From Luzula sylvatica (Eukaryota > Streptophyta > Magnoliopsida > Poales > Juncaceae): a stretch of 64,000 bases of DNA. The first letter of the stretch is position 1, and each line of letters starts with the position of its first letter. This document shows positions 1-21,100 of the stretch, in pieces. The notes under the pieces were generated by a model. The model searched no databases. It had not been told where the DNA came from and saw only the letters and a program-made list of their open reading frames with translations. The stretch spans positions 17,078,992 to 17,142,991 of the forward strand of contig OX326958.1 in assembly GCA_946800325.1 (NCBI GenBank), written 5' to 3'. Both the position numbers and the translations under genes were made by a program.

Positions 1-175
1 TTGCTTTATATCGCCATCCTGTAAGTAATTGCAATTAATTGAAATTATTTTGTTTTTTGAAATTATTTTATTTTTGTAAAATTGTAGGGCTTGTATGGCA
101 ACAATGGGGATTTTGTACTACCGTTTGTCGAAGAGTAATTTCGGTGATGGTTTGGTCGAAGAGGAGGCTCAGTAG
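1..175 (+). CDS. 3' terminal exons of an unidentified membrane-protein gene (partial)
   Basis: Bases 1-20 read in frame as the end of an exon (LLYIAI plus two bases) followed by a canonical donor GTAAGT at 21-26. An acceptor TTGTAG ends at 87, and the last exon 88-175 continues the frame to a TAG stop at 173-175. The joined peptide has a hydrophobic stretch (LLYIAILACMATMGILYY) and then a short polar, acidic tail ending VEEEAQ. This looks like a final membrane-spanning helix with a short tail of about 17 residues. The rest of the gene lies outside the window. I do not recognise the family. The call rests on good splice sites, frame continuity and a sensible peptide. A chance open frame cannot be excluded. 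Confidence 0.5.
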
Positions 176-694
176 GATTTCGAAATTCAAATTCATGACT
201 TTCTTTTTAAAATTTAAATTGTAATACTTTGAGGTCGTGTTATAGTCTTTTTTTTATTGTTTTTTTTGGTATTGCGAGGTATTAGAATATAAAATTAAAA
301 GGATATGTTTGTCAAACCGTTTTAGTAGATAAATCATGTATTTTATCGGCCCTTTATTTTTTTCTTAATCTTTTCATGTTTTTTTTTTTTTTTTTTGTCT
401 TTTAAATTTGGTCAATCCAGTACTCAGATTTGAATGAATAATCAGTTCACTTGATTTTTTTAATTATATATAATATTTTTTTATTTATTATTTTTTTATC
501 CGGAACCATACTTTGGAAATGAATCTATTCCGACCACATATATTTATTCGAACATGAATATTCTGAATATTCTGTAAGATACACTCCCTATTTGAACTTG
601 AATATTATCTCAATCAGAGATACCTACCGGCTCCACCATCCAATGATTATGTAATTTAGAGTAATGATATACATCTTCTAAAATTCTCCCCAAG
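176..694. other. AT-rich intergenic region
   Basis: This is probably the 3' UTR of the upstream gene followed by intergenic DNA. It has long T tracts (for example near 376-392) and no open frame or recognisable element. The last 50 bases (from about 645) could be the flank of the element that contains the following tandem repeat. Confidence 0.5.
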
Positions 695-1330
695 AAGTTT
701 GATGACGTGAATATTGTTTAACGTATTAAAAATTAATACATAAATATATGATTTAATATCTTAATTTATGATTTAATTATCTTAATTTATGATTGGACAT
801 CAAATTAAAATGTCAGACCACGACAAATTTCTTGAGGAAGAGGTGAGGGTTCTTTCCCAAAAAATTTGATTACGTGAATATTGTTTAACATATTAAAAAT
901 TAACACATACATATATAATTTAATATCTTAATTTATGATTTAATTATCTTAATTTATGATTGGACACCCAATTAAAATGTTAGATCACGACAAATTTTTT
1001 GAGGAAGAGATTAGGGTTCTTTCCCAAAAAATTTGATGACGTGAATATTGTTGAACATATTAAAAATTAACACATAAATATATAATTTAATATCTTAATC
1101 TATGATTTAATTATCTTAATTTATGGTTGGACCCAATTAAAATGTCAGACCAAGACAAATTTCTTGAGGAAGAGGTGAGGGTTCTTTCCCAAAAATTTTG
1201 ATAACGTGAATATTGTTTAACATATTAAAAATTAACACATAAAATATAATTTAATTATCTTAATTTATGATTGGACATCCAATTAAAATGTTAGATCTCA
1301 ACAAATTTCTTGAGGAAGATCTGAGGGTAC
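695..1330. repeat. Tandem repeat, ~167-bp unit, about 3.8 copies
   Basis: The anchor ending in ACGTGAATATTGTT recurs at 701, 868, 1035 and 1200, giving spacings of 167, 167 and 165 bp. Each unit then has AT-rich repeats of CTTAATTTATGATT, a segment TTAAAATGTYAGAYC, and the end CTTGAGGAAGA(G)GTGAGGGTTC. The copies differ by scattered substitutions and small indels. All four anchors keep ACGTG, the core of ABRE/bZIP sites; the first and third extend it to TGACGTG. The array ends about 390 bp upstream of the kinase start codon, so it may lie in the promoter. A regulatory role is inference. Confidence 0.85.
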
Positions 1331-1715
1331 ATCCAACATTTTCATATAATTTACATTTGTATAATTTAATTAGTTTCAAACCTTTTCCTTGTCCTTCTCC
1401 ACTAAGTTTGATTAAAAAAGAAAACGAGTAAAATAGAAGAAGGAAAGTATCAACACCATATGCAACGCGGCTTTTATCCATTGGATCCCAATCGACGCTG
1501 TATCCTCACCTTACATTTACATCCCATTCTCACTGTTCATATCGCTGACTTGTAATTAACATCTACAGATCTCGCGATCCCTAGGCCAAGCAAGCAAGCA
1601 AGGAACAATCTCATCGATCGATTCTCCAAGTAAGCACCTCTCCTCCTTCTTCTTCATCGATCGATCTATCTTAGCTACTTCAATCGTGTTCAATTCTGCA
1701 TTTGAATCGATTAGG
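1331..1715 (+). promoter_or_regulatory. Promoter-proximal region and 5' UTR of the diacylglycerol kinase gene, with a possible 85-bp leader intron
   Basis: No single convincing TATA box stands out. AT-rich candidates lie around 1343-1365. Between 1560 and 1715 the sequence is leader-like, with AAGCAAGCAAGCAAGG and CTCC/CTTC tracts. A donor GTAAGC at 1630 and an acceptor GATTAG ending at 1714 would define an 85-bp intron that places the start codon one base into the next exon. This is plausible for plants but unproven. Confidence 0.35.
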
Positions 1716-4469
1716 ATGGAGGCGGAAATGGAGAAGAATGAGGGATCGGAGAATAGCAACACTGAAATTCTGTTCAAGGAGCATTACATACCAGATTACA
1801 TATTCATTCCGGATTCATCACCACCAGAGAATACTGGAGAAATTCCCGCTTGTCCTGTCATCGTCTTCGTCAATTCCAGAAGTGGCGGACAACTCGGTAG
1901 TGAGTTGATCGTTACTTATCGCCAGCTTCTGAACAAGCTACAGGTATTACTCACTAGTAAAAAGTTTAATTTTAGTAAATAATTGATAATGAGGAGATTT
2001 GATTTTCGAAATTTTGACTTTGTGAAAAAGGTTTATGATCTTGGTGAAGAAGGACCGGATAAGGTCCTGCATAGAGTGTACCTCAATTTAGAGAGACTCA
2101 AATCTCAGAACAATGATCTCGCTGCTCATATTTTGAAAAGTTTAAGACTAATTGTGAGTAAATCAAATTCATACATTTGATCTTGAATTCGTGAATCGTT
2201 CCATTTTTTACAAATAAAAAAATTGAATTTGCAAAATAGGTTGCTGGTGGTGACGGTACGGCAAGTTGGCTTCTTGGCGTAGTGAGTGATTTGAGACTCG
2301 CTCATCCACCCGCAATTGCTACAGTTCCTCTCGGAACTGGAAATAATCTCCCTTTCTCTTTTGGATGGGTACGGTTTTTTACAAATTAAATAAATATATA
2401 ATTTGATTTCTTGAAAATGTTTTTATTTTATTTTTATTTTTTTAATGGTGAAGGGCAAGAGGAATCCAGGGACAAATACTGAGTGTGTGAAAACATTCCT
2501 TAATCAAGTCATGCAAGCAAAAGAAATGAAAATCGACAGGTAAATCTATTGATTCTTGTTTAAGATATATTAGACACAAATTATATTTAATTAGTTAATT
2601 ATTTAATTAAATATTTTTGAATATTAGTTGGCATATAATAATGAGAATGAAAGCGCCGAAAGAAGGTGAGTGCAATCCAATCGCGCCACAGCCACTCGAA
2701 TTACCGAACGCAATGCATGCATTTAAACGTGTCTCCACTTCTGATTCACTCAATGTGGTTAGTATTTATTTCAAATTCCCTCTTTATTAATTATTTTATT
2801 TTTTATTTTTCTTAAAAAAGCTTTCATTATTAATAATTACAGGAAGGATATCACACATATCGTGGGGGCTTTTGGAACTATTTCAGTATGGGTAAGCAAC
2901 ACATTATATATCTTTATCTTACTAAAATATGATTATAATTAAAATTATTAAATTATATTGATCTTTTAGGAATGGATGCGCAAGTATCATATGCATTTCA
3001 TACCGAACGAAAGACGCACCCTGAAAAATTCAAAAATCAGCTAACAAATCAGGTTGGTTTAATTTTAATTTTATTTTCTATATTTTAAATGTAATTAACT
3101 AATTAATTAATTAAATATTTATTAACGCAGCAAACATATGCAAAACTTGGAGTTACTCAAGGCTGGTTTTTCGCCTCTCTCGTTCATCCTTCTTCTAGGT
3201 TTCTTTTTTATTATCATCACTATTTCATTTGTAAATTAATATATTATAATCATATATATTATTATAATGCAGAAATATTGCTCAACTTGCGAAAGTGAAG
3301 ATAATGAAGAACGGAGAATGGCAAGAACTCCATATTCCTCGCAGGTACAGCAAGAACGACACATTTTAATTTTAATTTTATTTTTGAAAATGATTTTAAT
3401 AATATTTTTTTTTTTACAAAATACACAGTATTCGTTCGATCGTATGCTTAAACTTACCGAGCTTTTCTGGCGGTCTAAATCCCTGGGGAACTCCCAACAA
3501 AAACAAAGCGCGCGATGTCAGTAAATTCTTTATTTCAAAAATAAAAATAAAAATATTGGTTTAATTTTAATATAATAAAATAAATACAGAGAGACTTAAC
3601 CCCGCCCTACACGGACGATAAGCTCATCGAAGTAGTCGGCTTCCGCGACGCATGGCATGGCCTCGTCTTACTCGCTCCCAACGGCCACGGCACTCGTCTT
3701 GCTCAAGTACATTTAATTAAACCCATTAATCATAACCAAAAATAGGGGGATTTACATATTTACCCTTTTTTATGCTTGAAATTACATATTTACCCTTCTT
3801 AAATTTAAAATATCATATTTACCCTCTAAAATGCTCATATTTACCCAAAAATTAAAAAACCATCTAGTTTCTCCTTTAGAACTAACGTTCGACATTTAAA
3901 ATTACTATTTTACCCTTCTAAAAACAAAAAATATCATATTTACCCTTTCATAAATCTAAACTAGTAAATATGGTATTGAAATTAGATGATTTTTTATTTT
4001 TGAGTAAATATGATATTTTAGATTTATGAAAGGGTAAATATGATATTTTAATTTTAAGAAGGGTAAATATGTAAATCTCCCAAATTAATATATATTAAAT
4101 AAAATATTTATGTAGGCGCATAGGATAAGGTTCGAGTTTCATAAAGGAGCGACGGACCACACGTTCATGAGAATAGACGGGGAGCCGTGGAAGCAACCGT
4201 TACCAGCAGACGACGACACAGTCGTAGTCGAAATAAGTCATTTGGGACAGGTGAACATGTTGGCCTACGGACATTGCAAAGCGAAGAGCGTCGAGGAGCC
4301 GCCGTCGCCGCATTCGAGTAGTCACGCGAATGCTGCGGGGGAGGAGGAGGAGGATAGTTGCGAGGAGGCGGACGAGGAAGGGAGCGAGTGGCATGGAGGG
4401 GAGAAGAAGTTCGGGGCTGCCGAGACTTTTAAGATTCCGGAGCAGGTTGATATCGCTCATCTCAGTTGA
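1716..4469 (+). CDS. DGK5: Diacylglycerol kinase, plant DGK5-like (12 coding exons, 508 aa)
   Basis: The enzyme phosphorylates diacylglycerol with ATP to make phosphatidic acid, a plant lipid signal. Coding exons: 1716-1943, 2031-2153, 2240-2368, 2454-2539, 2628-2757, 2843-2891, 2970-3052, 3131-3198, 3273-3344, 3429-3516, 3590-3706, 4116-4469. All introns are GT-AG and the frame is continuous to TGA at 4467-4469. The N-terminal half is the catalytic domain, with NSRSGG near residue 53, the nucleotide-binding signature GGDGT at 120-124 and PLGTGNN at 147-153. The accessory domain follows ([50 protein letters not shown]). There is no C1 domain or membrane segment, as in the short plant cluster II/III kinases. 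Residues such as GWGKRNPGT and the ~508-aa length favour DGK5/6 over DGK3/4/7. The tail (from about 455) is acidic. The first ATG in the open frame was chosen; Met5 is an alternative. The gene looks intact. Confidence 0.92.
3745..4081. mobile_element. Fold-back MITE-like element in intron 11 of the kinase gene
   Basis: The element starts GGGGGATTTACATATTTACC and ends in the complement, GGTAAATATGTAAATCTCCC. Homology extends inward: the sequence at about 3775-3880 matches the reverse complement of about 3970-4078 over some 100 bp, with motifs TACATATTTACCCTT, ATATCATATTTACCC and CCATCTA in the same order. It is 337 bp, AT-rich, has no open frame and fills most of intron 11 (3707-4115, the longest intron). 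A target duplication is not clear, so no superfamily is assigned. Confidence 0.7.
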
Positions 4470-5511
4470 TTGTTTTGTGTTTTTGGTTTGCGTGATTTTG
4501 ATTTTTTGGTGGTGGGTTTGATTGGTGTGTGAATTAATTTGTTAAGATTACTGAAATCTTTACCGGCAACAAGGCTGGTTTGTAAGTTTGCAATGACAAA
4601 TAGTTGGCGATTGTGAATTGATTACCATTATTTTTTTCGATTAGTTACTTATAGACCGTTATAGAGTTTGGGGAGGGTGGCTGAGGAGGTCCAGGTGAAT
4701 AGACTGCTCCAGTCGTTAGGGAACCTGTTGCATTATTTACCACAAAGTTTTGGAAGTGGGTGGGACAAATCCGTTTCATGTCAAATAGACGTGCATAGCC
4801 GTTTGATTTCCGGTAAGCAAACAGTGTCATCCTTCGTTTCTTTAACAAAAGCCCAATTTACGAGTTGGCCAATTCGCAAATCTAACTCTTTTGCCTTCAC
4901 AAAAGATATTCGGGATGAATTTTGACCGTTAAGAAGTGAGTTAATATGGTTTAGCACGTCGGGGTGTCAAATTTTGGATTTGGAAATTTTGGCCAAGCCA
5001 AAAGTGATGCATGTTTTTCTGTAAAATACAAAAAATGATGTCTAAAACGAGAAAAATATTCAGTTTTCATGTTTTTATCATAAAAACTCCGTAATTGAAC
5101 ATTAACACCAGCAAATATTTATTTTTTTAAAAAATTTGGAAAATGCAAAAAGATTAACCCCCAACACCTTGAAAAATATAAACTTGTAATATTTTTTCTA
5201 AAAAATTGACAATAGTGATATTAAAAATATAAAATACTAAATTTTCATGTTTATTCCAAAACACACCATAATTAATAGTTAAAACATGATAATTTCAATT
5301 TTTCAAAATTTTTGTAAAAATGAAAAAAGTGGAGTCTAATAACTGCAGAAAAAATGAAACCATATTTTTCTAAATACAAATATTGACATTGAAACAAGGG
5401 GTGTACATAGATCGGGTTGAGCAGGTTTTTATCTAAATTGTAACCCAATCCAACAATAACGGGTTTTTATTTTTCCAACCCAACCCAACTCATGATACCT
5501 ATATAAATTTT
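4470..5511. other. 3' UTR and AT-rich intergenic DNA between the kinase gene and the satellite
   Basis: The kinase 3' UTR probably occupies the first one to two hundred bases. The stretch 4640-4925 is less AT-rich and open on both strands, but matches nothing I recognise. 5399-5500 has GGGTTGAGCAGG and CCAACCCAACCCAACTC runs, typical of low-complexity ends of plant dispersed repeats. No gene is supported. Confidence 0.5.
5062..5398. repeat. Degenerate ~179-bp tandem duplication
   Basis: Two diverged copies start with TTTTCATGTTT at 5063 and 5242 and share the same order of AT-rich blocks (CATAATTAA-like, AAAATTT, CCATATTTTTCTAAA-like). They are too diverged for certainty and could be a decayed repeat unrelated to the satellite that follows. 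Confidence 0.3.
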
Positions 5512-5839
5512 TAAAAACGTTATTTGAACTATTCAAAGTGTCAAAAGATTGCTATGAATCGAAAAGAAAACTTCCTTAGTTTTTGTACAATTTTTAAAAA
5601 CATGTTATTTGGACTCCTCAGAGCGTTAAACGATTGTTATGAATAAAAAACAAACTTTCTTAGTGTTTGTAAAATTTGGTGAAAAGTTATATAGTAAAAG
5701 ATACAAACAAATGATCTAAAAACACGTTATTTAGACTACTTACAACGTTAAAAGATTGTTATGAATCGAAAAACAAACTTTCTTAGTGTTTGTAAAATTT
5801 GGCGATAAGTTATGTAGTAAAAGATATGATACAAATGAT

Positions 5840-7180
5840 CTAAAATACACATTATTTGAACTCCTCAAAGCTTTAAAAGATTGCTACGAATTGAAAAGAA
5901 AACTTTCTTAATATTTGTTCAATTTGGTGAAAAGTTACGTGGCAAAAGATTCCATCGAAACCATCTCAAAAACACTTTATTTGGACTCCTCACAGCGTTA
6001 ACAGATTGTTATGAAACGGAAAACAATCTTTCTTAGTGTTTGTAAAATTTTGATGATAAGTTATGAAGTAAGTGATACGATACGAATGATCTAAAAACAC
6101 ATTATTTGAACTCCTCAAAGCGTAAAAAGATTGCATTGAATCGGAAAGAAAACTTTCTTTGTGTTTGTACAATTTGGTGAAAAGTCACGTAGTAAAAGAT
6201 TCGATCCAAAGCATCACAAAAACATGTTATTTGGACTCCTCAGAGCATTAAAAGATTGTTACGAATCGAAAAATTCTTAGTGTTTGTAAAATTTGGTGAA
6301 AAGTTATGTAGAAAAAGATACGATTCAAATGATCTAAAAACACGTTATTTGAACTCCTCGCAGTTTAAAAAGATTGCTTCGAATCGAAAATAGAACTTTC
6401 TTTGTGTTTGCACAATTTGGTGAAAAGTAATGTAGTAAAAGCTTCGATCCAAACCATCTCAAAAACTCGTTATTTGGACTCCTCAGAGCGTTAAATGACT
6501 TATGAATCGAAAAACAAACTTTCTTTGTGTTTGTAATATTTGGCGATAAGTTATGTAGTAAAAGATACAATGCAAGTGATCTAAAAACACGTTATTTGAA
6601 CACCTCAAAACGTAAAAATATTGCTATGAATCGAAAAGAAAACATTCTTAGTGTTTGTACAATGTGGTGAAAAGTTACGTAGTAAAAGATTCGATCCAAA
6701 CCATCTCAAAAACACGTTATTTGGACTTCTCAGAGCGTTAATATATTGCTAAGACTCGAAAAACAAATTTTCTTAGTGTTTGTAAAATTTGGTGAAAAGT
6801 TATGAAGTAAAAGAGACGATACAAATGATCTAAAAACAGGTTATTTGAACTCCACAAAGCGTAAAAATATTGCATTGAATCGAAAAGAAAACTTTCTTTG
6901 TGTTTGTACAATTTGGTGAAAAGTTACGTAGTAAAAGATTCGATCCAAAGCATCTCAAAAACACATTATTTGGACTCCTCAGAGCAATAAAAGATTGTTA
7001 CGAATTGAAAAACAAACTTTCTTAGTGTTTGTAAAAGTTGGTAAAAAGTTATGTAGTAAAAGATACGATCCAAATTATCTAAAAACACGTTATTTGAACT
7101 CCTCAAAGCGTAAAGAGATTGCTTTGAATCGAAAATAAATCTTTCTTTGTGTTTGTACAATTTGGGGAAAATTTACGTAG
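5840..7180. repeat. First copy of a 16-monomer local duplication
   Basis: This stretch matches 7825-9160 at a constant offset of 1985 bp (16 monomers). Shared private variants include AAGCTTTAAAAGA (5869, 7854), a short monomer with GAAAAATTCTTAG, and TTAAATGACTTATGAA. The second copy has a small deletion near 9029. A third copy lies in the block duplicated from 32236. Confidence 0.85.
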
Positions 7181-7824
7181 TAAAAGATTCCATCGAAAGC
7201 ATCTCAAAAACACATTATTTGGACTCCTCGGAGAATTAAAAGATTGTTACGTATCGAAAAACAAACTTTCTTAGTGTTTGTAAAATTTGGTGAAAAGTTA
7301 TATAGTAAAAGATTCGATACAAATGATCTAAAAATACGTTATTTGAACTCCTCAAAGAGTAAAAAGATTGCTTTGAATCGAAAAGAAAACTTTCTTTGTG
7401 TTTGTACAATTTGGTGAAAAGTTGCGTAGTAAAAGATTCGATCCAAAGATCGTAAAAACACATTATTTGGACTCCTCAGAGCATTAAAAGATTGCTACCA
7501 ATTGAAAAACAAACTTTCTTAGTGTTTGTAAAATTTGGTGAAAAGTTATGTAGTAAAAGATACGATACAAATGATCTAAAAACACGTTATTTGAACTCCT
7601 AAAAGCGTAAAGAGATTGCTATGAATCGAAAAGTAAACTTTATTAGTGTTTGTACAATTTGGTGAAAAGTTACGTAGTAAAATATTCGATCCAAACCATC
7701 TCAAAAGCTCGTAATTTGGATTCCTCGGAGCGTTAAAAGATTGTTATTAACCGAAAAACAAAATTTCTTAGTGTTTGTAAAATTTGGTGAAAAGTTATAT
7801 AGTAAAAGATATGATACAAATGAT

Positions 7825-9160
7825 CTAAAAAACACGTTATTTGAACTCCTCAAAGCTTTAAAAGATTGCTACGAATTGAAAAGAAAACTTTCTTAATATT
7901 TGTTCAATTTGGTGAAAAGTTACGTGGCAAAAGATTCCATCGAAACCATCTCAAAAACACTTTATTTGGACTCCTCACAGCGTTAACAGATTGTTATGAA
8001 ACGGAAAACAATCTTTCTTAGTGTTTGTAAAATTTTGATGATAAGTTATGAAGTAAGTGATACGATATGAATGATCTAAAAACACATTATTTGAATTCCT
8101 CAAAGCGTAAAAAGATTGCTTTGAATCAGAAAGAAAACTTTCTTTGTGTTTGTACAATTTGGTGAAAAGTCACGTAGTAAAAGATTCGATCCAAAGCATC
8201 ACAAAAACATGTTATTTGGACTCCTCAGAGCATTAAAAGATTGTTACGAATCGAAAAATTCTTAGTGTTTGTAAAATTTGGTGAAAAGTTATGTAGAAAA
8301 AGATACGATTCAAATGATCTAAAAACACGTTATTTGAACTCCTCGCAGTTTAAAAAGATTGCTTCGAATCGAAAATAGAACTTTCTTTGTGTTTGCACAA
8401 TTTGGTGAAAAGTAATGTAGTAAAAGCTTCGATCCAAACCATCTCAAAAACTCGTTATTTGGACTGCTCAGAGCGTTAAATGACTTATGAATCGAAAAAC
8501 AAACTTTCTTTGTGTTTGTAATATTTGGCGATAAGTTATGTAGTAAAAGATACAATGCAAGTGATCTAAAAACACGTTATTTGAACACCTCAAAGCGTAA
8601 AAATATTGCTATGAATCGAAAAGAAAACATTCTTAGTGTTTGTACAATTTGGTGAAAAGTTACGTAGTAAAAGATTCGATCCAAACCATCTCAAAAACAC
8701 GTTATTTGGACTCCTCAGAGCGTTAATATATTGCTAAGACTCGAAAAACAAACTTTCTTAGTGTTTGTAAAATTTGGTGAAAAGTTATGAAGTAAAAGAG
8801 ACGATACAAATGATCAAAAAAACAGGTTATTTGAACTCCACAAAGCGTAAAAATATTGCATTTAATCGAAAAGAAAACTTTCTTTGTGTTTGTACAATTT
8901 GGTGAAAAGTTACGTAGTAAAAGATTCGATCCAAAGCATCTCAAAAACACATTATTTGGACTCCTCAGAGCAATAAAAAATTGTTACGAATTGAAAAACA
9001 TAGTTTCTTAGTGTTTGTAAAAGTTGGTAACGTAGTAAAAGATACGATCCAAATTATCTAAAAACACGTTATTTGAACTACTCAAAGCGTAAAGAGATTG
9101 CTTTGAATCAAAAATAAATTTTTCTTTGTGTTTGTACAATTTGGAGAAAAGTTACGTAGT
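7825..9160. repeat. Second copy of the 16-monomer local duplication
   Basis: See 5840-7180. This copy is also the one carried into the larger duplicated block, matching 32980-34315 at offset 25155. Confidence 0.85.
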
Positions 9161-10411
9161 AAAAGATTCGATCCAAAGCATCTCAAAAACACATTATTTG
9201 GACTCCTCTGAGCATTAAAAGATTGTAAACGAATTGAAAAACAAACTTTCTTAGTGTTTGTAAAAGTTGGTGAAAAGTTATGTAGTAAAAGATACGATAC
9301 AAATGATCTAAAAACACGTTATTTGAACTCCTCAAAGCGTAAAATGATTTCTTTGAATCGAAAAGAAATCTATCTTTGTGTTTGTACAATTTGGGGAAGA
9401 GTAACGTAGTAAAAGATTCGATCCAAAGCATCTCAAAAACACGTTATTTGGACTCCTCAGAGCATTAAAATATTGTTACGAATCGAAAAACAAACTTTCT
9501 TAGTGTTTGTAAAATTTGGTGAAAAGTTATGTAGTAAAAGATATGATACAAATGATCTAAAAGACCGTTATTTGAACTCATGAAAGCGTAAAAAGATTGC
9601 TACGAATTGAAAAGAAAACTTTATTAGTGTTTGTACAATATGGTGAAAAGTTACGTAGTAAAAGATTCGATCGGAACCATCTCAAAAACGCGTTATTTGG
9701 ACTTCTCACAGTGTTAAAAGATTGTTATGAATCGAAAAACAAACTTTCTTAGTGTTTGCAAAATTTGGTGAAAAGTTATGTAGTAAAAGATACGATACAA
9801 ATGACTAAAAACATGTTATTTGAACTCCTCGAAGCGTAAAAAGATTGATTTGAATCGAAATGAAAACTTTCTTTGTGTTTGTACAATTTGGTGAAAACTT
9901 ACGTAGTAAAAGATTCGATCCAAAGCATCTCAAAAACACGTTATTTGGACTCCTCAGAGCATTAAAAGATTGTTAGGAATAGAAAAACAAACTTTCTTAG
10001 TGTTTGTAAAATTTGGTGAAAAGTAATTTAGTAAAATATATGATACAAATGATCTAAAAACACGTTATTTGAACTCCTAAAAGCGTAAAAAGATTTCTAC
10101 GAATCGAAAAGAAAATTTTATCAGTGTTTGTACAAATTGGTGAAAAGTTACGTAGTAAAAGATTCGATCGAAACCGTCTCAAAAACACGTTATTTGGACT
10201 TCTCACAGCGTTAAAAGATTGTTACGAATCGAAAAACAAACTTTCTCAGTGTTTGTGAAATTTGGTTAAAAGGTATGTAGTAAAAGATACGATACAAATG
10301 ATCTAAAAACACGTTATTCGAACTCCTCGATGCGTAAAATGATTGCTTTGGATCAAAAAGAAAACTTTCTTTGTGGTTGTACAATTTAGGAAAAAGTTAC
10401 GTAGTAAAAGA

Positions 10412-11444
10412 TGTTGGGTATCGGCGTCACTACCGAGCCCCGCGCAGCGGATTGAAGGGCCCGGTCCGACCCGATCCCGAGGACCACGTCGTCGACCCGA
10501 GAGTACGAATCCTAAATCTACGTGCAACTACCTATGAATATAACAATTATAGACATAGATTCATACCACGTGAAATTGATCACGGTGACGGGTTGAAAGC
10601 GTAGTTGCTGCCTTTTTGTTGCTCCAATCTTCGGTAACACGTGCGTCCCATTCCCGCGCGATTCGACACCTTCGATTGAGCTCCGATTTGTCGTATACAA
10701 CCGGATCACATCCGGTTCGTCATCCATCTTGCTCTAGCTTGATCACAATAGAGGATTTCAGATGAAATCCCTCTACCCGTATCCACCTTGAGCCTCGTCT
10801 TTCGGTTACGCGCGATTCCCCTAAAATCGTCGTAAACTTGCTTAAAACCTTCAATCTCTCTAATGGAGTTTTCTCTCTTTTCTTGTCTCACAAGAATTCT
10901 CTTCTCAGATCTGGAATTACCAGAGAGAGAGAAGATCAACAATTGATCTTATATTAACACCATAATTAATGAGGGATTAATGAGTACAAAGAAAAACTGC
11001 TAATCTGGAATTTGGATCACAGTCCGTCATGACGCACAGAATGGTGCGTCATGATGCACCAGTCACGTTTCCTAGAAACAGCATTTACTATTGGTCCGTC
11101 ATGACTGACCATACAGTCCGTCATGACTGACCATACAGTCCGTCATGACGCACCATATTGTGCGTCATGACTGACCATACTCACAGATTGGTACACAAAA
11201 TTCCCTTTGGTCCGTCATGACTGACCAATCTGTCCGTCATGACTGACCATGTTATTTCTGTGTAATCTGACAGATTAACCTATTGGTCCGTCATGACTGA
11301 CCAAACAGTCCGTCATGACTGACCATGTTATTTCTGTCAGATTTGCATAATCTTATTATGCATCCAATCGTATCGACGAATGCGTACGTTCGTCTATCCT
11401 CATGTGTGCAAGCTACTAGTTGATCTATAACTGTATTTCCTTCA
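10412..11444 (-). repeat. 3' LTR of the non-autonomous element
   Basis: This 1033-bp LTR is the downstream copy in the element's minus orientation. By eye it is identical to 17188-18220 at a constant offset of 6776. It contains an array of ten GTCATGAC-type words (11020-11326) in U3 and perfect triloop inverted repeats at 10699-10717 and 11344-11362. Confidence 0.95.
11020..11326. repeat. GTCATGAC word array in the 3' LTR
   Basis: Ten words occur, most in the form TCCGTCATGACTGACC, some as CCGTCATGACGCAC or GCGTCATGACTGACC. They lie in the U3 part of the LTR. Confidence 0.9.
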
Positions 11445-11459
11445 GTCTCCCACTCAGTT
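11445..11459 (-). other. Polypurine tract
   Basis: On the minus strand AACTGAGTGGGAGAC immediately precedes the 3' LTR, as expected for plus-strand priming. It agrees with the orientation given by the primer site. Confidence 0.85.
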
Positions 11460-14400
11460 TAAGATCCAACTAAAGAATACACCAATGTACATCACATGTA
11501 CACTTATCTTTGAGATTGAAATCAAGCCCGAAATAAGACAGCTCTATGTGTGACCGCGTAGGTTCGTATCAAGCAATGGTAGTAAACTTATTCCTAAGTT
11601 TACGGGCTCATGAGAGGGATCTAGGAAGAAATCCATCATAGCTTTCCCACGTTGAAAACGAAAAATGATTGTGATCATTTATACCCATCTCGAACGGTGG
11701 TGTTTAGTTCTCTTGTTCGCGATATCCGTCAATCAAAAGGCATGGTAATAGTCATCCTTATGTTTTGATTGACTATACTTAAATTTCGATACCGAATTGA
11801 ATCAACAAATACAATCGATATTAACTATTAATATCATTGACTCTGGCCAGAGATTTCGTTGATTAATTCATCGATAGGCCTAAGGGATATCTCTTTCTCT
11901 CGAAAGGAACAATTTCCATCTTGATGATTCACATCAAATTCCGTGTTTCAGATAACACCCGATCATAATCCTATGACCATCCTGTTACAGATAGTGGAAG
12001 ATTATATCTAAGCATCATGTTACGCACGAAAAATGATCCATGATCATCTCAAGTGTGAAGAACTAAGACCCCATTCGTTACGATTCCATCTACAATGACT
12101 AAACCATGTCATGGTATCGCACTTTTGGTCAAGTCACAATATGCATAACCTAATGCATATCCATATTCCCGATTCGACAAACTCTTTGTCCTATGATTAG
12201 CAAAACATAATCATCACCTCGGCGAATATGCTAGTGTACACGTTAGTCTATTATCTTATAATAGATATACTTATCACATAAGTATCCTAATCGTGACTAG
12301 GGACGTTTTTGAAATATAACTTTTGAAATGTGACGGTTTTACTTAACATAATCACGTATTATGTAGACGCTCACACAAGTCATAATTCAAGGTTCGTGTA
12401 ATCATATTACACAACCACACACAAGTTTTCATATAAGTATAAATGCAATTAAAATTTTAAATTTTTTGAAATGCACTAATATAGAGTAAGTATTGTTTGA
12501 TGCAGCGTTTACACCTATAATCTCTGCTAGGATTATAATCTGCGATGACTATCGGTGTAAGATAACTATACCTCAAATCTATTCCTCCTCTAGGTATCTC
12601 TATACCTATAGTCTTCGCATGACATTCATGCTTAACTAAGAAGAAAGCAGTTTTTGTAAACGGTTCCGCTACGTTCCCGTTAGTGTCAATTTTTGTTAGG
12701 TATCCAATACCTATTTAAATATAAGTTTGGAGTGGTTATGTTATTTCAGTTTCTTTTGGTTTATGCTATTTCGACCATCGAAATAGATAACCAAAGAATC
12801 CTATTACTTGGGATAATACCAAGTATGATCAACATCTTGATCCATAACGTTTCCATTTCGGCTTCGTAAACCGTATTGAAATCAAATTCCATCGTAGAAT
12901 TTTCATTTTAGTTGTTGTGAAACTCTTTCATACAACTTCATTTTTCTTTAAGCAAAATATGTACACATTTCGTAAATGTGTTGCATGTTTGGAGAAATAC
13001 TATCGGTATAATTTTTATCACCGATATATTTTCTTCACCATTTTATATGAGAAATATAATATTAATCCTTTCTAAAAGGATATTGTTTATTAATTTCAAT
13101 ACGAATCCGGGTTTTAAATGTTGCATAACTATTATGCATGTGTAAAATATAACCATTATACAACCATATTAAATTGTTTTCGTTCGAACCAACCATATGA
13201 AGTATTCGAAACGAAATATTCTCTGGATTCGATTGATAATTACGACACTTAATATGAACAATATTTAAAGATTAGTACATATCATGGCGTATTTGGAATA
13301 TTCTATTATCGAAATATAAAATATCCATTTTCCTATTTTTCTTTAACTCGATGTCGCACATCGATTCTCAGAAAAATTTCGCCATTCGACATTTGGAAGA
13401 AATCCGATCTTGGATTTATGTACTGAAAACCATTTTCAGTGTTTTGTCGATGTACATACTTCGATTCAGATCGAGGAATTTTAAATCTATCTTATAGATT
13501 TTTATGCTTATCTCATAAGGTGTCTCGTCTGAATTTTCATAGCGAAACGACAATCGTTTCCTACGAATAATATATCGTTCATATATTTTAATATAAGAAA
13601 TGTATGTGGCTCCCACTAACCTTCACATCTACACAAAGCTTTTCTTTTGCTCTTGATAATATTATAACTAATTATAATTTTATCAGAATAAAATTCCAAT
13701 TTCATGAATTATTCTTCAATCCATCAAATGGATCGTTGAAATTTGTATACTTTTCTTGGATTCTTTTGATCGATAAAACTATTAGGTTGTGTCACATACA
13801 CATCCTTTAATATTTCCTATCAAGGAATACAGTCTTGTCACCCATTTGTCAAAATTCATAGTCATACTATGTGAAATGACAAATATGATCCGAATGAATC
13901 AAGCGTGATTATTTGTGAAATCTTTTCTTCATGATCATATCATGAATTCTCGAATCTCATAAACATTCTTGCTTTGTAAGTATACATATTCTAATCCACG
14001 TTAGCTTTCACTTTGAAAACTCACTTACATCCTATGGGTCATACCCTATGGAATGTTCAAACCAAGTTCTAAACTTGATGACATGCATGGATTGAATCAT
14101 GAATTCCATGGCATTATGCCATGTGAAATTTTTATCCTTTATAGCATCATTTTAGCCCATCGACTCATCATGTATGAGATCGATTCGTTTGTCACATTCT
14201 TTGATAAATTCACAATTTATTGATTCGTGATGTGTCTAAATTGATCTATAAAATCGCTTTGTGACCTTGACTTGGATTCATCAACCTTTGATGAAATTCC
14301 AATCATTTCATCAGTTCATATGTCCCATTTCGAGTCTCGAACCTTTCGAGATCGATTCATCTCCCACTAGTTCGTATATATGTACGTGACATTAAGTTCC

Positions 14401-14624
14401 AAACTTATGCACATTAAGTCCTCCTCTAAGAAGGTTTCTTTTCGAACTATGAAAATCTTATTTTCATTGGGATATGAAAAATTTAGTATTCTTTAATTTA
14501 TTCAAGAATATTCAATAAATGAACATATCAAATTTGAGATTTAATTTATCCAAAACCAGTTTTCGGATCAAATCTTCAAATCTTACAAAAGATAACATCG
14601 GAAGTTTTTATTAACATTGAACTA

Positions 14625-14659
14625 TTAACGTGCCCGACTTTGGCCTGAAACCACGTTAA
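14625..14659 (-). other. Stem-loop 1 with the shared 19-nt loop
   Basis: Arms TTAACGTG (14625-14632) and CACGTTAA (14652-14659) enclose the 19-nt loop CCCGACTTTGGCCTGAAAC. The loop recurs in stem-loops 2 and 3 with different stems. Confidence 0.8.
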
Positions 14660-15976
14660 CCCTCAATTTAATTTCTTTCCGATCCATATCACATATGGGG
14701 TCTTTTGCACCGACTTAGAAGGTATGTGATTAACCTTTGTCTTAAGGGTAAATTTCCAAATCTTATTTGAAAATTTTATTTTGATTTATCATCTATCAAA
14801 CAATGTCCAACAAAGTTTGATTCCACTTTTCGAACACATTGATCTACATTGATGTTCCGAATGAAAATAACTTATGAAACTTTTCCATAAATTTTCAAGA
14901 TGATTATCATACTCATAGCTTAAAATGTTCGTCTCTTCGATCTTATCGAAAGACTTTGATTTTCTCGCTTAGTTGACTTCGTATTTCATTTCGAAATGTT
15001 TTTGAACCATTCAAAATTATGTTTCAAACGCATTAAATAGATATCTTTATATCTACAATAATCGTTGGTAAATATAATGAAATATTTGTAGCCTCCTCTT
15101 GCCTCAGAACTTACTTATTTACCTACATTCAAAATGTTTGGTTTTTGATAAGTCTTTGACCGTTTTTCCAACCTTTGGAATGACACTTTTGTCATCTTGA
15201 TTACTAAACAATTCTTGTACTTGTCATGCGAATCTTATTCGAATGAAACTAGTATTCCATCAAATGGATTGTAGACATGTGTATCGCATACACATAGTCA
15301 AGATGATAATGTCAAAAGAAGCTATTACTATCAACTTTTGGATTAATCCTCCTCGGATTTAACCTTTCTTTTGATATTGGGACAACAACTTGCCCAAATC
15401 CTTGATTGAGACAACGTTTGTCTTAATCACCCTTAGACCCTTGTTTCTTATAAATCCTCAAGCTCCTTTGAAGTTTCGTGTCTTATGTATGTCAACATTT
15501 GACATACAATATTATTTGACTTCTTCTCAAGTTTGTCAAATTTTTTTGCTTTCTCTAATATCGATCATATCGATATGATATTGGTGTTGCTTAAATGATT
15601 ATTCTACATGAATTATGACATTGACAACTAACCGTGCGTACTTATTCTATATGCTTATATGATATGAAATATGTTACTTTTATCAAATCAATAACCCTAA
15701 TATTGATTCGGGATTCTTAATCCAATAACACTTCAAGACCCATATTTCATGATCCTCCCACAAGTGACTTTGGCCGACAAATGGGATCTCACTATTTAGG
15801 TAGAATAAATCCAATCGCATCCAATGCGACTCTTGACCTTTTATAGGATTTCGGTATTGAACCATATCATATATGATTCAAATTCCGTTTGTGCATCCTA
15901 ACTATGCCCCGAACCCCAATCGGATTGGCTTGGACGGTTAAGTCACAACCACATTCACTTATCGTTCAATTGAGCT

Positions 15977-16013
15977 ACAAATGCGCCCGACTTTGGCCTG
16001 AACCCGCATTTGT
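15977..16013 (-). other. Stem-loop 2 with the shared 19-nt loop
   Basis: Arms ACAAATGCG (15977-15985) and CGCATTTGT (16005-16013) are perfectly complementary over 9 bp and enclose CCCGACTTTGGCCTGAACC. Confidence 0.85.
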
Positions 16014-16054
16014 CCCCAATCAACGCTTGCCTCTCATGTTGATACATACAACAA

Positions 16055-16085
16055 TGCACGCCCGACTTTGGCCTGAACCCGTGCA
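16055..16085 (-). other. Stem-loop 3 with the shared 19-nt loop
   Basis: Arms TGCACG (16055-16060) and CGTGCA (16080-16085) enclose CCCGACTTTGGCCTGAACC. A looser relative with the core GACTTTGGCC and a weak stem lies at 15754-15786. Confidence 0.8.
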
Positions 16086-16272
16086 AGGTGTGATGACCAA
16101 CCTCGGAGGTTGTGAACATGGAAGGCATTTTTATGACTTAAATATTATGCAGGGATTTATGTGATATAATCTAATTACATCATTGAGCAGGTTTAATTAT
16201 GACGAATGACTTATATGAACATAATTATTAATCATTAGAACCAATATAAAAAATTTCCAGAAAAATTGCACT

Positions 16273-16936
16273 GTCCGTCGTGACTGACACATGGTCCGTC
16301 ACGACGCAAGTATACAGTCCGTCATGACGCATAACATCCTGCGTCATGACTGACCATGCCCATATTAAAATTTTCAGAAAAAATTTTATACTGTCCGTCA
16401 TGACTGACAGTTGGTCCGTCATGACTGACCATGTCCAATATTTCTCCTGATTTGGACTTACTTTGACTTCCGTCATGACGCACAAAACAGTGCGTCACGA
16501 CGGACTTCACTTGTCCGTCATAACGCCAGAAGGTGCGTCATGACGGACTATACAAAACAATTTTGTTGTCCAATCCAGGGGCTAATTCGTGTTATGTCCG
16601 TCACGACTGACCAAATGGTCCGTCGTGACGGAACTAGTTAATACAGTCCGTCATGACGCACAACTTGGTGCGTCATGACTGACCATTATAACTCTCAAAA
16701 TCCAACTCTTGGACTGCACGATATATACTGTCCGTCATGACTGACAACCTGTCCGTCATGACTGACTGTACAAAACAATTTTGTACAAACTTCCAGGGAC
16801 TATTTGGGCCACTTCCGTCATGATGCACAACTCTTGTGCGTCATGACGGACAAGTGTAACGCATCAGATCCAACTATTGGATTTCGCGATGAACAGTGTC
16901 CGTCATGACTGACCATCTGGTCCGTCATGACTGACC
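16273..16936. repeat. Array of about 20 palindromic GTCATGAC words in the element leader
   Basis: Words of the form (T)CCGT or (T)GCGT, core CATG, then ACGGAC, ACGCAC or ACTGACC recur irregularly, with unrelated AT-rich spacers. Neighbouring words often pair into longer hairpins, such as 16814-16850 (17-nt arms with one mismatch, loop CTC). The array lies about 250-900 nt downstream of the primer site in the element's sense. Confidence 0.9.
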
Positions 16937-17174
16937 TACTGTAAAACTCAATTTTGACAGTAAATTTTTGCTGAAATTGAATCGTTTCGAAAACGATTAA
17001 TCATGAAACATTTTCATGACTACTTCTAGATGCCTTTGATCATCATATGATCAAATTCTAATAAGTTTTCCGTGGTCCTAATTTTATGAAACTATATGAT
17101 TTATGTTCTAATTCTACATGATTTTCCGAATAACTTTTATTCGAAATTGATTCGACGATCGAATCGCGACGATC

Positions 17175-17186
17175 GCTCTGATACCA
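17175..17186 (-). other. Primer binding site (initiator tRNA-Met type)
   Basis: On the minus strand this reads TGGTATCAGAGC, the usual plant site complementary to the 3' end of initiator methionine tRNA, one base from the 5' LTR. It fixes the element's orientation. A small inverted repeat GCGA-CGA-TCGC (17166-17176) overlaps its end. Confidence 0.92.
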
Positions 17187-17723
17187 CTGTTGGGTATCGG
17201 CGTCACTACCGAGCCCCGCGCAGCGGATTGAAGGGCCCGGTCCGACCCGATCCCGAGGACCACGTCGTCGACCCGAGAGTACGAATCCTAAATCTACGTG
17301 CAACTACCTATGAATATAACAATTATAGACATAGATTCATACCACGTGAAATTGATCACGGTGACGGGTTGAAAGCGTAGTTGCTGCCTTTTTGTTGCTC
17401 CAATCTTCGGTAACACGTGCGTCCCATTCCCGCGCGATTCGACACCTTCGATTGAGCTCCGATTTGTCGTATACAACCGGATCACATCCGGTTCGTCATC
17501 CATCTTGCTCTAGCTTGATCACAATAGAGGATTTCAGATGAAATCCCTCTACCCGTATCCACCTTGAGCCTCGTCTTTCGGTTACGCGCGATTCCCCTAA
17601 AATCGTCGTAAACTTGCTTAAAACCTTCAATCTCTCTAATGGAGTTTTCTCTCTTTTCTTGTCTCACAAGAATTCTCTTCTCAGATCTGGAATTACCAGA
17701 GAGAGAGAAGATCAACAATTGAT

Positions 17724-17731
17724 CTTATATT
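17724..17731 (-). promoter_or_regulatory. Probable TATA box of the 5' LTR
   Basis: On the minus strand this reads AATATAAG within TTAATATAAGATC. It lies between the word array (U3) and a GA-rich stretch with CTCTCTC that suits the start of R. The 3' LTR has the same at 10948-10955. Assigned from position and sequence only. Confidence 0.5.
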
Positions 17732-17795
17732 AACACCATAATTAATGAGGGATTAATGAGTACAAAGAAAAACTGCTAATCTGGAATTTGGATCA

Positions 17796-18102
17796 CAGTC
17801 CGTCATGACGCACAGAATGGTGCGTCATGATGCACCAGTCACGTTTCCTAGAAACAGCATTTACTATTGGTCCGTCATGACTGACCATACAGTCCGTCAT
17901 GACTGACCATACAGTCCGTCATGACGCACCATATTGTGCGTCATGACTGACCATACTCACAGATTGGTACACAAAATTCCCTTTGGTCCGTCATGACTGA
18001 CCAATCTGTCCGTCATGACTGACCATGTTATTTCTGTGTAATCTGACAGATTAACCTATTGGTCCGTCATGACTGACCAAACAGTCCGTCATGACTGACC
18101 AT
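17796..18102. repeat. GTCATGAC word array in the 5' LTR
   Basis: This is the same ten-word array as 11020-11326, upstream of the presumed LTR TATA box, where enhancer-like repeats often lie. A regulatory role is inference. Confidence 0.9.
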
Positions 18103-21100
18103 GTTATTTCTGTCAGATTTGCATAATCTTATTATGCATCCAATCGTATCGACGAATGCGTACGTTCGTCTATCCTCATGTGTGCAAGCTACTAGTTGAT
18201 CTATAACTGTATTTCCTTCAAAAGATTCGATCCAAAGCATCTCAAAAACACATTATTTGGACTCCTCGGAGCATTATAAGATAGTTACGAATCGAAAAAC
18301 AAACTTTCTTAGTGTTTGTAAAATTTGGTGAAAATTATGTAGTAAAAGATTCGATACAAATGATCTAAAAACACGTTATTTGAACTCCTCAAGGAGTAAA
18401 AAGATTGCTTTGAATCGAAAATAAATCTTTCTTTGTGTTTGTACAATTTGGGGAAAAGTAACGTAGTAAAAGATTCGATCCAAAGCTTCTCAAAAACACG
18501 TTAATTGGACTCCTCAGTGCATTAAAAGATTGTTACGAATCGAAAAACAAACTTTCTTAGTGTTTGTAAAATTTGGTGAAAAGTAATGTAGTAAAAGATA
18601 TGATATAAATGATCTAAAAATACGTTATTTGAACTCCTCAAAGCGTAAAAAGATTTCTACGAATCGAAAAGGAAAACTTTATTAGTGTTTGTACAATTTG
18701 GTGAAAAGTTACGTAGGTAAAGATTCGATCGAAACCGTCTTAAAAACACGTTATTTGGACTTCTCATAGCGTCAAAAGATTGGTATGAATCGAAAAACAA
18801 ACTTTCTAAGTGTTTGGAAAATTTGGTGAAAAGTTATGTAGTAAATGATACGATACAAATAATCTAAAAACATGTTATTTGAACTCCTAAAAGCGTAAAA
18901 AGATTGCCACGAATCGAAAAGAAAACTTTATTAGTGTTTGTACAATTTGGTGAAAAGTTACGGAGTAAAAGATTCGATCGAAACCATCTCAAAAACTCAT
19001 TATTTGGACTCCTCACAGCGTTAAAAGATTGTTATGAATCGAAAAACAAACTTTCTTAGTGTTTTGTAAAATTTGGGGAAAAGTTATGTAGGAAAAGATA
19101 CGATACAAATGATCTAAGAACATCCTATTTGAACTCCTCGAAGCGTAAAAAGACTGATTTGAATCGAAAAGAAAACTTTCTTTGTGTTTGTACAATTTGG
19201 GGAAAAGTTACGTAGTAAAAGATTCGATCCAAAGCAACTCAAAAACACGTTATTTGGACTCCTCAGAGCATTAAAAGATTGTTAAGAATCGAAAAACTAA
19301 CTTTCGTAGTGTTTGTAAAATTTGGCGACAAGTTTTGTAGTAAAAGATACGATAAAAATGATCTAAAAACACGTTATTTGTAATCCTCAAGGCGTAAAAA
19401 GATTTCTACGAATCAAAAAGAAAACTTTCTTAGTGTTTGTACAATTTGGTCAAAAGTTACGTGGTAAAAGATTCGATCCAAACCATCTCAAAAACACGTT
19501 ATTTGGACTCCTCACAGAGTTAACAAATTGTTATAAATCGGAAAACAAACTTTCTTAGTGTTTGTAAAATTTGATGATAAATAATGAAGGAAAAGATACG
19601 ATTCAAATGATCTAAAAACACGTTATTTGAATTCCTCAAAGCGTAAAAAGATTGTTTTAAATCGAAAAGATAACTTTCTTTGTGTTTGTACAATTTGGTG
19701 AAAAGTTACGTAGTAAAATATTCGATCCAAATCATCTCAAAAACACATTATTTGAACTCCTCAGAGTATTAAAAGATTGTTACGAATTGAAAAATAAACT
19801 TTCTTAGTGTTTGTAAAATTTGGTGAAAAGTTATGTAGTAACAGATACGATACAAATGATCTAAAAACATGTTATTTGAACTCCTCGAAGTGTAAAAAGA
19901 TTACTTCGAATCGAAAATAGAACTTTCTTTGTGTTTGCACTATTTGGTGAAAAGTTACGTTGTAAAAGCTTCGATACAAACCATCTCAAAAACTGGTTAT
20001 TTCGACTCCTCAGAGCGTTAAAAGACTGTTATGAATAAAAAAACAAAGTTTCTTAGTGTTTGTAAAATTTGGCGATAAGTTATGCAGTAAAGATACGATA
20101 CAAGTGATTTAAAAGCTCGTTCTTTGAACTCCACAAAGTGTAAAAAGATTGCTATGAATCGAAAAGAAAACTTTCTTAGTGTATGTACAATTTGGTGAAA
20201 AGTTACGTAGTTAAAATCTCGTTCCAAACCATCCAAAAAACACGTAATTTGGACTCCTCAGAGCTGTAAAATATTGTTATGAATAGAAAAACAAATTTTG
20301 TTAGTGTTTGTAAAATTTGGTGAAAAGTTATGAAGTAAAAGATACGATACAAATGATCTAAAAACACGTTATTTGTACTCCTCAAAGCGTAAAAAAGATT
20401 GCTTTGAATCCAAAAGAAAAACTTATTTGTGTTTGTACAATTTGGGGAAAAGTAACGTAGTAAAAGATTCGATCCAAAGTATCTCAAAAACAAGTTATTT
20501 GTACTCCTCAGAGCATTAAAAGATTGTTACGAATCGAAAAACTAAATTTCTTTGTGTTTGTAAAATTTGGTGAAAAGTTACGTAGTAAAAGATTCGATCC
20601 AAAACATCTCAAAACACGTTATTTGGACTCCTCGATACGTAAAAAGATTGCTTCGAATCGAAAATAGAACTTTCTTTGTGTTTGCACAATTTGGTGAAAA
20701 GTAACGTAGTAAAAGCTTCGATCCAAATCATCTCAAAAACTCGTTATTTGGACTCCTCAGATTGTTAAAAGACTGTTATGAATCGAAAAACAAACTTTCT
20801 TAGTGTTTGTAAACTTTGGCGATAAGTTATGTAGTAAAAGATACGATACAAGTGATCTAAAAACACGTTATTTGAACTCCACAAATCGTAAAAAGATTAC
20901 TATGGATCGAAAAGAAAACTTTCTTAGTTTATGTACAATTTGGTGAAAATTACGTAGTAAAACATTCGATCCAAAACATCTCAAAACCACGTTATTTGGA
21001 CTCCTCAGAGCATTAAAATATTGTTAAGAATCGAAAAAGTAATTTTCTTAGTGTTTCTAAATTTTGGTGAAAAGTTATGAAGTAAAAGATACGATACAAC

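Follow-up and report, generated by a model that had tools for sequence, protein, structure and literature searches.

G-ending triloop hairpins along a Copia-derived retrotransposon of Luzula sylvatica: putative dispersed packaging signals in a non-autonomous element

Related systems and the Luzula element

Large retrotransposon derivatives (LARD) are long terminal repeat (LTR) elements whose core domain yields no protein products and whose RNA secondary structure is well conserved (PMC7215508). Here we describe an element of this general kind in a 64,000-bp stretch of the Luzula sylvatica genome (assembly GCA_946800325.1, contig OX326958.1, positions 17,078,992 to 17,142,991; the whole stretch is called the window). 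It is an LTR retrotransposon of 7.8 kb, located on the minus strand, whose two 1,033-bp LTRs are 100% identical to each other. Its core of several kb codes for no recognisable protein and has an RNA secondary structure that is conserved among copies of this one genome, being crowded with perfect hairpins whose three-nucleotide loops nearly always end in G in the sense RNA. The original barley LARDs, presented in 2004, are reportedly Gypsy-like, and we know of no such loop motif in them. Since the Luzula element has Copia instead of Gypsy affinity, the term LARD is used here only in its wide structural sense. The element also differs in repeating one loop motif 45 times with a fixed polarity and in having a coding relative that carries the same hairpins.

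That an RNA virus can carry multiple dispersed packaging signals is an accepted concept (PMC6281560). For instance, the genomes of phage MS2 and satellite tobacco necrosis virus and the hepatitis B virus pregenome contain many dispersed stem-loops with a short common motif that is read by the coat protein (PMC6281560, PMC9065705, PMC3593212). The Luzula array resembles them structurally, since many stem-loops with a common loop motif are spread across the RNA; however, the array resides in a plant LTR retrotransposon, the binding of a coat protein is only proposed, and the loop rule is visible by eye. In the Psi and splice-donor (SD) hairpins of HIV-1, with GGAG and GGUG loops, a zinc knuckle grips the final G of a small loop (PMC7599994). 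The likeness lies in the G-ending small loop and in the partner element described below, whose frame has one CCHC knuckle; in contrast to HIV-1, the Luzula loops are triloops and not tetraloops, they are counted in dozens and not a few, and they cover the whole RNA. The bacterial sponge RNAs of the CsrB/RsmZ type are non-coding molecules in which several hairpin sites present one motif, GGA, to a protein (PMC4005645), but they differ in the motif, in their bacterial origin and in the lack of transposition.

With respect to non-autonomous elements, RLG_Quinta of wheat centromeres shares its LTR ends and primer site with its helper RLG_Cereba (PMC11302176), as the Luzula element does with its partner. 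However, Quinta still encodes GAG, whereas nothing recognisable is encoded here, and the excerpted account of Quinta mentions no hairpin array (PMC11302176). Little seems to be known about the selection of plant LTR retrotransposon RNA for packaging; the term "packaging signal" does not occur in the text of a 2025 review (PMC12786077). No LTR element with such hairpins was found among the papers listed by searches of one open-licence library, from which most subscription papers are absent, and the motif letters retrieved no papers.

The triloop array and its loop rule

Triloops were defined as perfect inverted repeats whose arms, of 6 bp or more, flank a spacer of 3 nt. The interior of the element (11445-17187) contains 47 of them, against a mean of 2.3 and a maximum of 5 in 50 dinucleotide shuffles, and a mean of 2.5 and a maximum of 8 in a second set of 200. 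An earlier note on this DNA had claimed at least 37 inverted repeats with this spacer, 36 of them perfect, and the observation is real and stronger than claimed: 35 of the 37 starts were exact, two were displaced (12248 corresponds to 12247, and 15404 is the repeat at 15409 extended past a mismatch), and ten more were found (12176, 12451, 14684, 15000, 15558, 16098, 16552, 16767, 16825 and 16868). A spacer of 3 nt is the only strong peak, with 47, 9, 5, 6, 5 and 5 maximal loops at spacers of 3 to 8 nt. The shuffle expectation is 2.5 at spacer 4 and 2.0 at spacer 5, so that the nine four-base loops (six of them also ending in G) are a small excess too. An apparent excess at spacers 5 and 7 was discarded, because longer triloop stems had been counted again; most of it disappears with maximal loops.

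In the neighbouring satellite, stretches of 4.8, 5.8 and 6.0 kb contain 0, 1 and 0 triloops, respectively. There are 8 in the left flank (1-5590), of which 4 start with C on the plus strand; the density there is far lower, with a slight tendency towards the same rule. Over all of the 56 kb of the window outside the element, triloops of the form NNG number 6 on the minus strand and 1 on the plus strand. The region is AT-rich, as an artefact of chance or composition would have it, but this explanation is refuted by the shuffle, satellite and flank controls, together with a codon-shuffle control given below, and is hardly conceivable. The arms are mostly unrelated: outside a block of GTC palindromes, self-BLAST gave 7 weak pairs, in 3 of which a stretch matched its own inverted copy. 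What is repeated is thus the architecture and not the sequence, as the earlier note had proposed. No even spacing of the hairpins was found along the interior.

The primer-binding site lies next to an LTR on the minus strand and the polypurine tract precedes the other LTR; therefore, the minus strand is the sense strand. In the sense RNA, 45 of the 47 loops are NNG and the other two are TAA (P ~1e-29 against the sense-strand G frequency). On the plus strand this is the reported excess of C at the first spacer base, with two exceptions, both TTA, instead of the single one noted before. The only loop starting with C in sense, CCG, is also G-ending. This loop is the one NNG triloop read on the antisense strand of the interior, against 45 in sense; in the LTR the ratio is 4 to 0. 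Such polarity bears on a role at the DNA level, in which the repeats would act as cruciforms or dyads of centromeric satellite chromatin. The element is indeed placed within a long 124/249-bp satellite array, but a duplex signal needs no polarity, copies are present on six contigs and the partner keeps hairpins within its open reading frame (ORF). We consider this role very improbable.

The rule is not restricted to the loop. Among the 52 triloops of the interior and one LTR, the closing pair is A-U or U-A in 51 and the second pair is A-U in 34, while no clear base rule applies from the third pair onward. The apical motif shared by the hairpins can be written as 5'-A-W-[D-N-G]-W'-U-3' on a stem of 5-10 bp. 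Sites of the form A-W-NNG-W'-U are bimodal, having either 2-4 or 5-10 pairs, and 40 of 71 reach at least 5 pairs. With a third loop base other than G, no site has 6 pairs and just 3 have 5.

Local folding predicts a mean pair probability above 0.5 for 41 of the 47 stems on the sense strand and for 39 on the antisense strand. The loop G is predicted to be unpaired with a mean probability of 0.83 (n=45), compared with 0.34 over all G. Selection might also favour folding in general, i.e., compact or double-stranded RNA that fits a particle or resists nucleases, or the production of small RNAs, in the absence of any reader of the loop. The hairpin flanks, whose pairing extends beyond that of swapped controls (-8.5 vs -7.1, standard deviation 0.35), and the GTC block, which is very stable (mean z ~-7), go in this direction. 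However, generic folding leaves unexplained why loop position 3 is a G, why the closing pair is weak and why other loop lengths are scarce, and we find this account improbable.

Copies, the Copia partner and the dead pol region

Copies of the element were sampled by scoring 40 of 1,971 candidates. Hairpin variants were collected from the loci L006 to L068, decayed copies included; gapped variants were dropped and those equal to the window copy were not counted. The 49 NNG hairpins have 81 distinct variants, in which loop positions 1, 2 and 3 changed 30, 38 and 14 times. One mutation may recur in several variants and, because the variants are related, the changes are not independent events. When both sides of an arm pair changed, 13 became another Watson-Crick pair, 1 became G-U and 2 did not pair; one-sided changes gave G-U in 32 cases, A-C in 18 and other combinations in 25. 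The leaders of the loci from L036 on that have the exact primer site were aligned after dropping identical ones (10 copies). This alignment contains 4 covarying pairs, whereas shuffles average 0.8 and none of 500 has as many; 97% of its cells pair, compared with 27-54% for slid partners. Compensatory changes, which the earlier note had proposed to look for across related elements, are thus present within this genome.

Three long stretches around other copies were retrieved. One of them, L067 (G000:C1:8535700-8544699), is an old fragment related to the element that lies beside a LINE-type element (long interspersed nuclear element) with zinc knuckle, endonuclease and reverse transcriptase frames. 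This LINE serves as a small negative control, the last 4.7 kb of the locus having 0 NNG triloops and 5 others. The other two, L066 and L068, each have two modules and an open frame of 1,342 amino acids. L066 has the same 12 terminal bases as the window element at each LTR end, the same primer site and the same polypurine tract; its LTRs of 956 bp are identical and its target duplication is TGATG. The junctions of L068 are the same as those of L066 where covered.

The L068 frame contains, in Copia order, Gag (PF14223), a zinc knuckle (PF00098), pre-integrase, integrase, an SH3-like domain and RVT_2. The knuckle, a single CCHC, scores 23.1 bits against a cut-off of 20.8. The integrase domain rve (516-613) precedes RVT_2 (844-1088) and remnants of this polyprotein are detected in the window element by tblastn, which places the latter in Copia by descent. 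At the protein level, the Gag has 11 relatives with 41-48% identity, two of them named from Mikania micrantha. As judged from their sequences, L066 and L068 appear to be the autonomous partner of the window element. The partner also carries the hairpins: in L066, all 12 leader triloops with arms of 6 or more are NNG, as are all 6 of the 3' region and the 3 of each LTR, and the ORF has 11 of this kind among its 15. The L068 ORF contains 11 NNG hairpins, whereas 300 synonymous-codon shuffles gave 0.72 with a maximum of 4; with G-U pairs allowed and arms of at least 8, there are 11 against 0.77, and the count drops to 5 if G-U is instead allowed as read on the other strand. The array had been described as a feature of a retrotransposon interior. 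This is true but too narrow, since the rule is that of a G-ending triloop in the minus-strand sense RNA and the hairpins also occur in the LTRs, in the Copia partner and in its ORF.

The partner polyprotein aligns co-linearly with the window element (element positions 2960-5620), with a best E value of 6e-49, 28% identity in the reverse transcriptase part and an E value of 1e-4 for the last piece. The dead pol region represents roughly half of the interior. Over this former ORF, 24 window hairpins have counterparts in the partner, in which 118 of 168 pairs are Watson-Crick, where shuffling within pair type predicts 106 (P 0.001); double Watson-Crick changes number 11 against 4.6 expected (P 0.001), and 19 of 23 counterparts with an aligned third loop base retain the loop G. 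The hairpin density is about three times as high in the window element (27 in 3,020 nt) as in the partner ORF (11 in 4,029 nt). The changes in the ORF hairpins come from a single sequence pair, the window element and L068, and from one alignment method. These results suggest that the hairpins were already in the ORF, where they seem to have been imperfect under coding constraint, and that their number and perfection increased after the loss of coding; we infer this direction of change from that one pair. The earlier image of an interior built of hairpins is accordingly correct in part, as the hairpins did not arise from nothing and a large part of the interior is a dead pol region reworked into hairpins.

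The earlier note left open whether selection or a copying process makes the hairpins. A mutational generator could be imagined in which the reverse transcriptase, next to a template G, folds back over a loop of 3 nt and goes on copying the strand that it has just made, the resulting hairpins being functionless and purged from coding regions. The fixed polarity and loop length would fit an event on first-strand cDNA, and the arms are mostly unrelated and denser where coding was lost. However, the loop G changes less often than the other two loop bases, there are 13 and 11 compensatory double changes, the ORF counterparts pair more than shuffling predicts, and the rule reaches the closing and second pairs. 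A pure generator is therefore disfavoured and rather improbable, but copying may be the origin of the arms, and a generator may have acted together with selection. Selection on the sense-strand RNA hairpins is well supported.

A proposed packaging role and the genomic setting

A strand-specific loop with one fixed base and a weak closing pair on a free stem reads as a protein-binding RNA site. Gag is proposed as the reader because both elements should need it and because, in the HIV-1 Psi and SD hairpins, zinc knuckles grip the exposed final G of a small loop (PMC7599994). Each hairpin would present its unpaired G to the Gag of the partner, whose frame holds the CCHC knuckle, and the array would act as a dispersed packaging signal and perhaps also as an assembly signal. 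The window element, having no recognisable protein, would be packaged and copied in trans by the partner and, free of coding constraint, it could have multiplied and perfected its Gag-binding sites. The window element derives from a Copia element whose open-frame copies persist in the same genome; it is non-autonomous and its insertion is recent. By analogy with the systems mentioned above, the hairpins may be dispersed Gag-binding packaging signals and the element a packaging parasite; we judge these two propositions, taken jointly, to be about evenly poised between true and false.

Several facts weigh against this interpretation. The stems are predicted to form on the antisense strand just as readily (mean pair probability 0.77 vs 0.74), and the local folding energy of 11445-16200 is just mildly low (mean z ~-1.6 on both strands). 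The covarying leader pairs are located in just 2 of 5 helices, and the number of pair types was reached by 58 of 500 shuffles. The strand evidence from mismatches is moderate, G-U exceeding A-C by 32 to 18 in the copies and by 11 to 6 in near-perfect window stems; in the ORF counterparts the numbers are 20 and 10, which is no G-U excess because shuffling expects 27 and 15. In HIV-1, replacement of the Psi GGAG loop had no significant effect on packaging (PMC7599994). Besides, hairpins distributed throughout the RNA, including LTRs and ORF, suit another RNA-binding protein too.

Indeed, the main rival to Gag is a host RNA-binding protein involved in silencing, decay, export or translation, for which the same hairpins would be a sponge or a recruitment site similar to CsrB/RsmZ. 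Dozens of copies of one loop motif on varied stems have the look of a titrating RNA (PMC4005645), and the LTR and the ORF carry hairpins as well. However, there is no candidate protein, and sites inside the partner's coding region fit a signal acting in cis for the partner's particle no less well. We regard a host reader as unlikely, but less so than the other alternatives to Gag binding discussed above.

If Gag is the reader, it can tentatively be proposed that the parasite turned the dead ORF of its helper into a super packaging signal that outcompetes the helper, the loss of coding being a conversion and not a decay. This extension is somewhat doubtful; if true, the element would correspond, in nature, to a defective interfering genome. 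Within a single RNA the family provides about 45 naturally occurring versions of the same site; it also includes an apparent helper whose frame is open and a derivative freed from coding constraint, so that specificity, dose dependence and competition between helper and parasite are directly testable. In addition, the rule A-W-DNG-W'-U on a stem, with one polarity, gives a pattern to search for in other elements and has a bearing on how elements devoid of proteins stay mobile.

The features of the element are listed in Table 1. Paired TG...CA LTRs, a target-site duplication, a primer-binding site and a polypurine tract make it an LTR retrotransposon, and the identical LTRs with AAAGA on both sides indicate a recent insertion. 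The tract GAGTGGGAGAC is taken to be the polypurine tract because of its motif, and the primer-binding site TGGTATCAGAGC is presumably of the initiator tRNA-Met type. With LTRs of 1,033 bp and an interior of 5,743 bp, it is unlike the terminal-repeat retrotransposons in miniature (TRIM), which have short LTRs and almost no internal domain. The longest stop-to-stop frame of the interior has 95 amino acids (96 if overlapping the LTR), and a Pfam scan of 13 of the 19 interior frames of at least 60 amino acids gave no match at the cut-off. The best one, rve_2 (16.0 bits, cut-off 22), is on the antisense strand and was discarded.

Table 1. Features of the retrotransposon in window coordinates (hairpin starts on the plus strand; the two loops marked TAA depart from NNG)
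Feature	Position	Strand	Evidence
Target-site duplication AAAGA, left copy	10407..10411	.	directly visible
3' LTR (element orientation), 1,033 bp, 4 NNG triloop hairpins	10412..11444	-	
Putative polypurine tract GAGTGGGAGAC, adjoins 3' LTR, identical in L066 and L068	11445..11455	-	sequence
Interior, 5,743 bp, 47 perfect triloop hairpins (arms 6-10)	11445..17187	-	
Triloop starts	11486, 11817, 12033, 12176, 12247, 12267, 12396, 12451 (TAA), 12617, 12697, 12766, 12963, 13065, 13122, 13348, 13422, 13483, 13544, 13719, 13857, 13928, 14063, 14107 (TAA), 14204, 14277, 14335, 14393, 14449, 14684, 14936, 15000, 15166, 15277, 15409, 15486, 15558, 15815, 16098, 16552, 16767, 16825, 16868, 16980, 17001, 17035, 17127, 17149	-	
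Dead pol region, co-linear Copia polyprotein remnants (integrase to C-terminal part), in the stretch densest in perfect hairpins	12601..15261	-	tblastn
18-nt invariant loop TTCAGGCCAAAGTCGGGC, copy 3, own stem	14632..14649	-	
18-nt invariant loop TTCAGGCCAAAGTCGGGC, copy 2, different stem	15985..16002	-	
18-nt invariant loop TTCAGGCCAAAGTCGGGC, copy 1, different stem	16060..16077	-	
Block of GTCATGAC-type palindromes, long stable stems, repeats also in LTRs	16262..16960	-	
Five NNG hairpins directly after the primer-binding site, <200 nt from it, matching places in 10 aligned leaders	16980..17165	-	
Primer-binding site TGGTATCAGAGC, presumed, 1 base from 5' LTR	17175..17186	-	sequence
5' LTR (element orientation), 1,033 bp, identical to the other LTR, 4 NNG hairpins	17188..18220	-	
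Target-site duplication AAAGA, right copy	18221..18225	.	

The stems around the TTCAGGCCAAAGTCGGGC loops are self-complementary, and 8 of 9 pairs changed on both sides across the three copies (0 of 500 shuffles as high). This 18-mer has 791 exact matches in the 445 Mb of genome searched, compared with 0 for the reversed pattern; the first 30 of the 791 loci are all on contig C1. The loop is common to the window element and its partner and perhaps has a role in dimerisation or Gag binding.

The GTCCGTCATGACTGACC palindromes are found in the LTRs (11017-11327 and 17793-18103) and by the leader (16262-16960), the low folding energy of the block being that of 16200-16960. Stretches of these GTC palindromes resemble the microRNA precursor MIR4371 of Rfam, presumably a soybean family, but a score of 41.8 bits against a gathering threshold of 110 led to its rejection. 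Other sub-threshold Rfam matches, HIV_GSL3 (E 0.19) and RUF6-5, were attributed to palindromes or chance. Scans of IMG/VR with four patterns returned 2, 3, 0 and 0 stretches, five loci having 1-4 triloops each, and have no value as a control.

Most of the window (5595-10412 and 18220-64000) is occupied by a 124/125-bp satellite in dimers of ~249 bp, into which the element is inserted. On the left side, adjoining the satellite array, exons of a plant diacylglycerol kinase gene are at 1560-1979 and 4116-4466, and a 167-bp tandem repeat with 3.5 copies lies at 689-1272.

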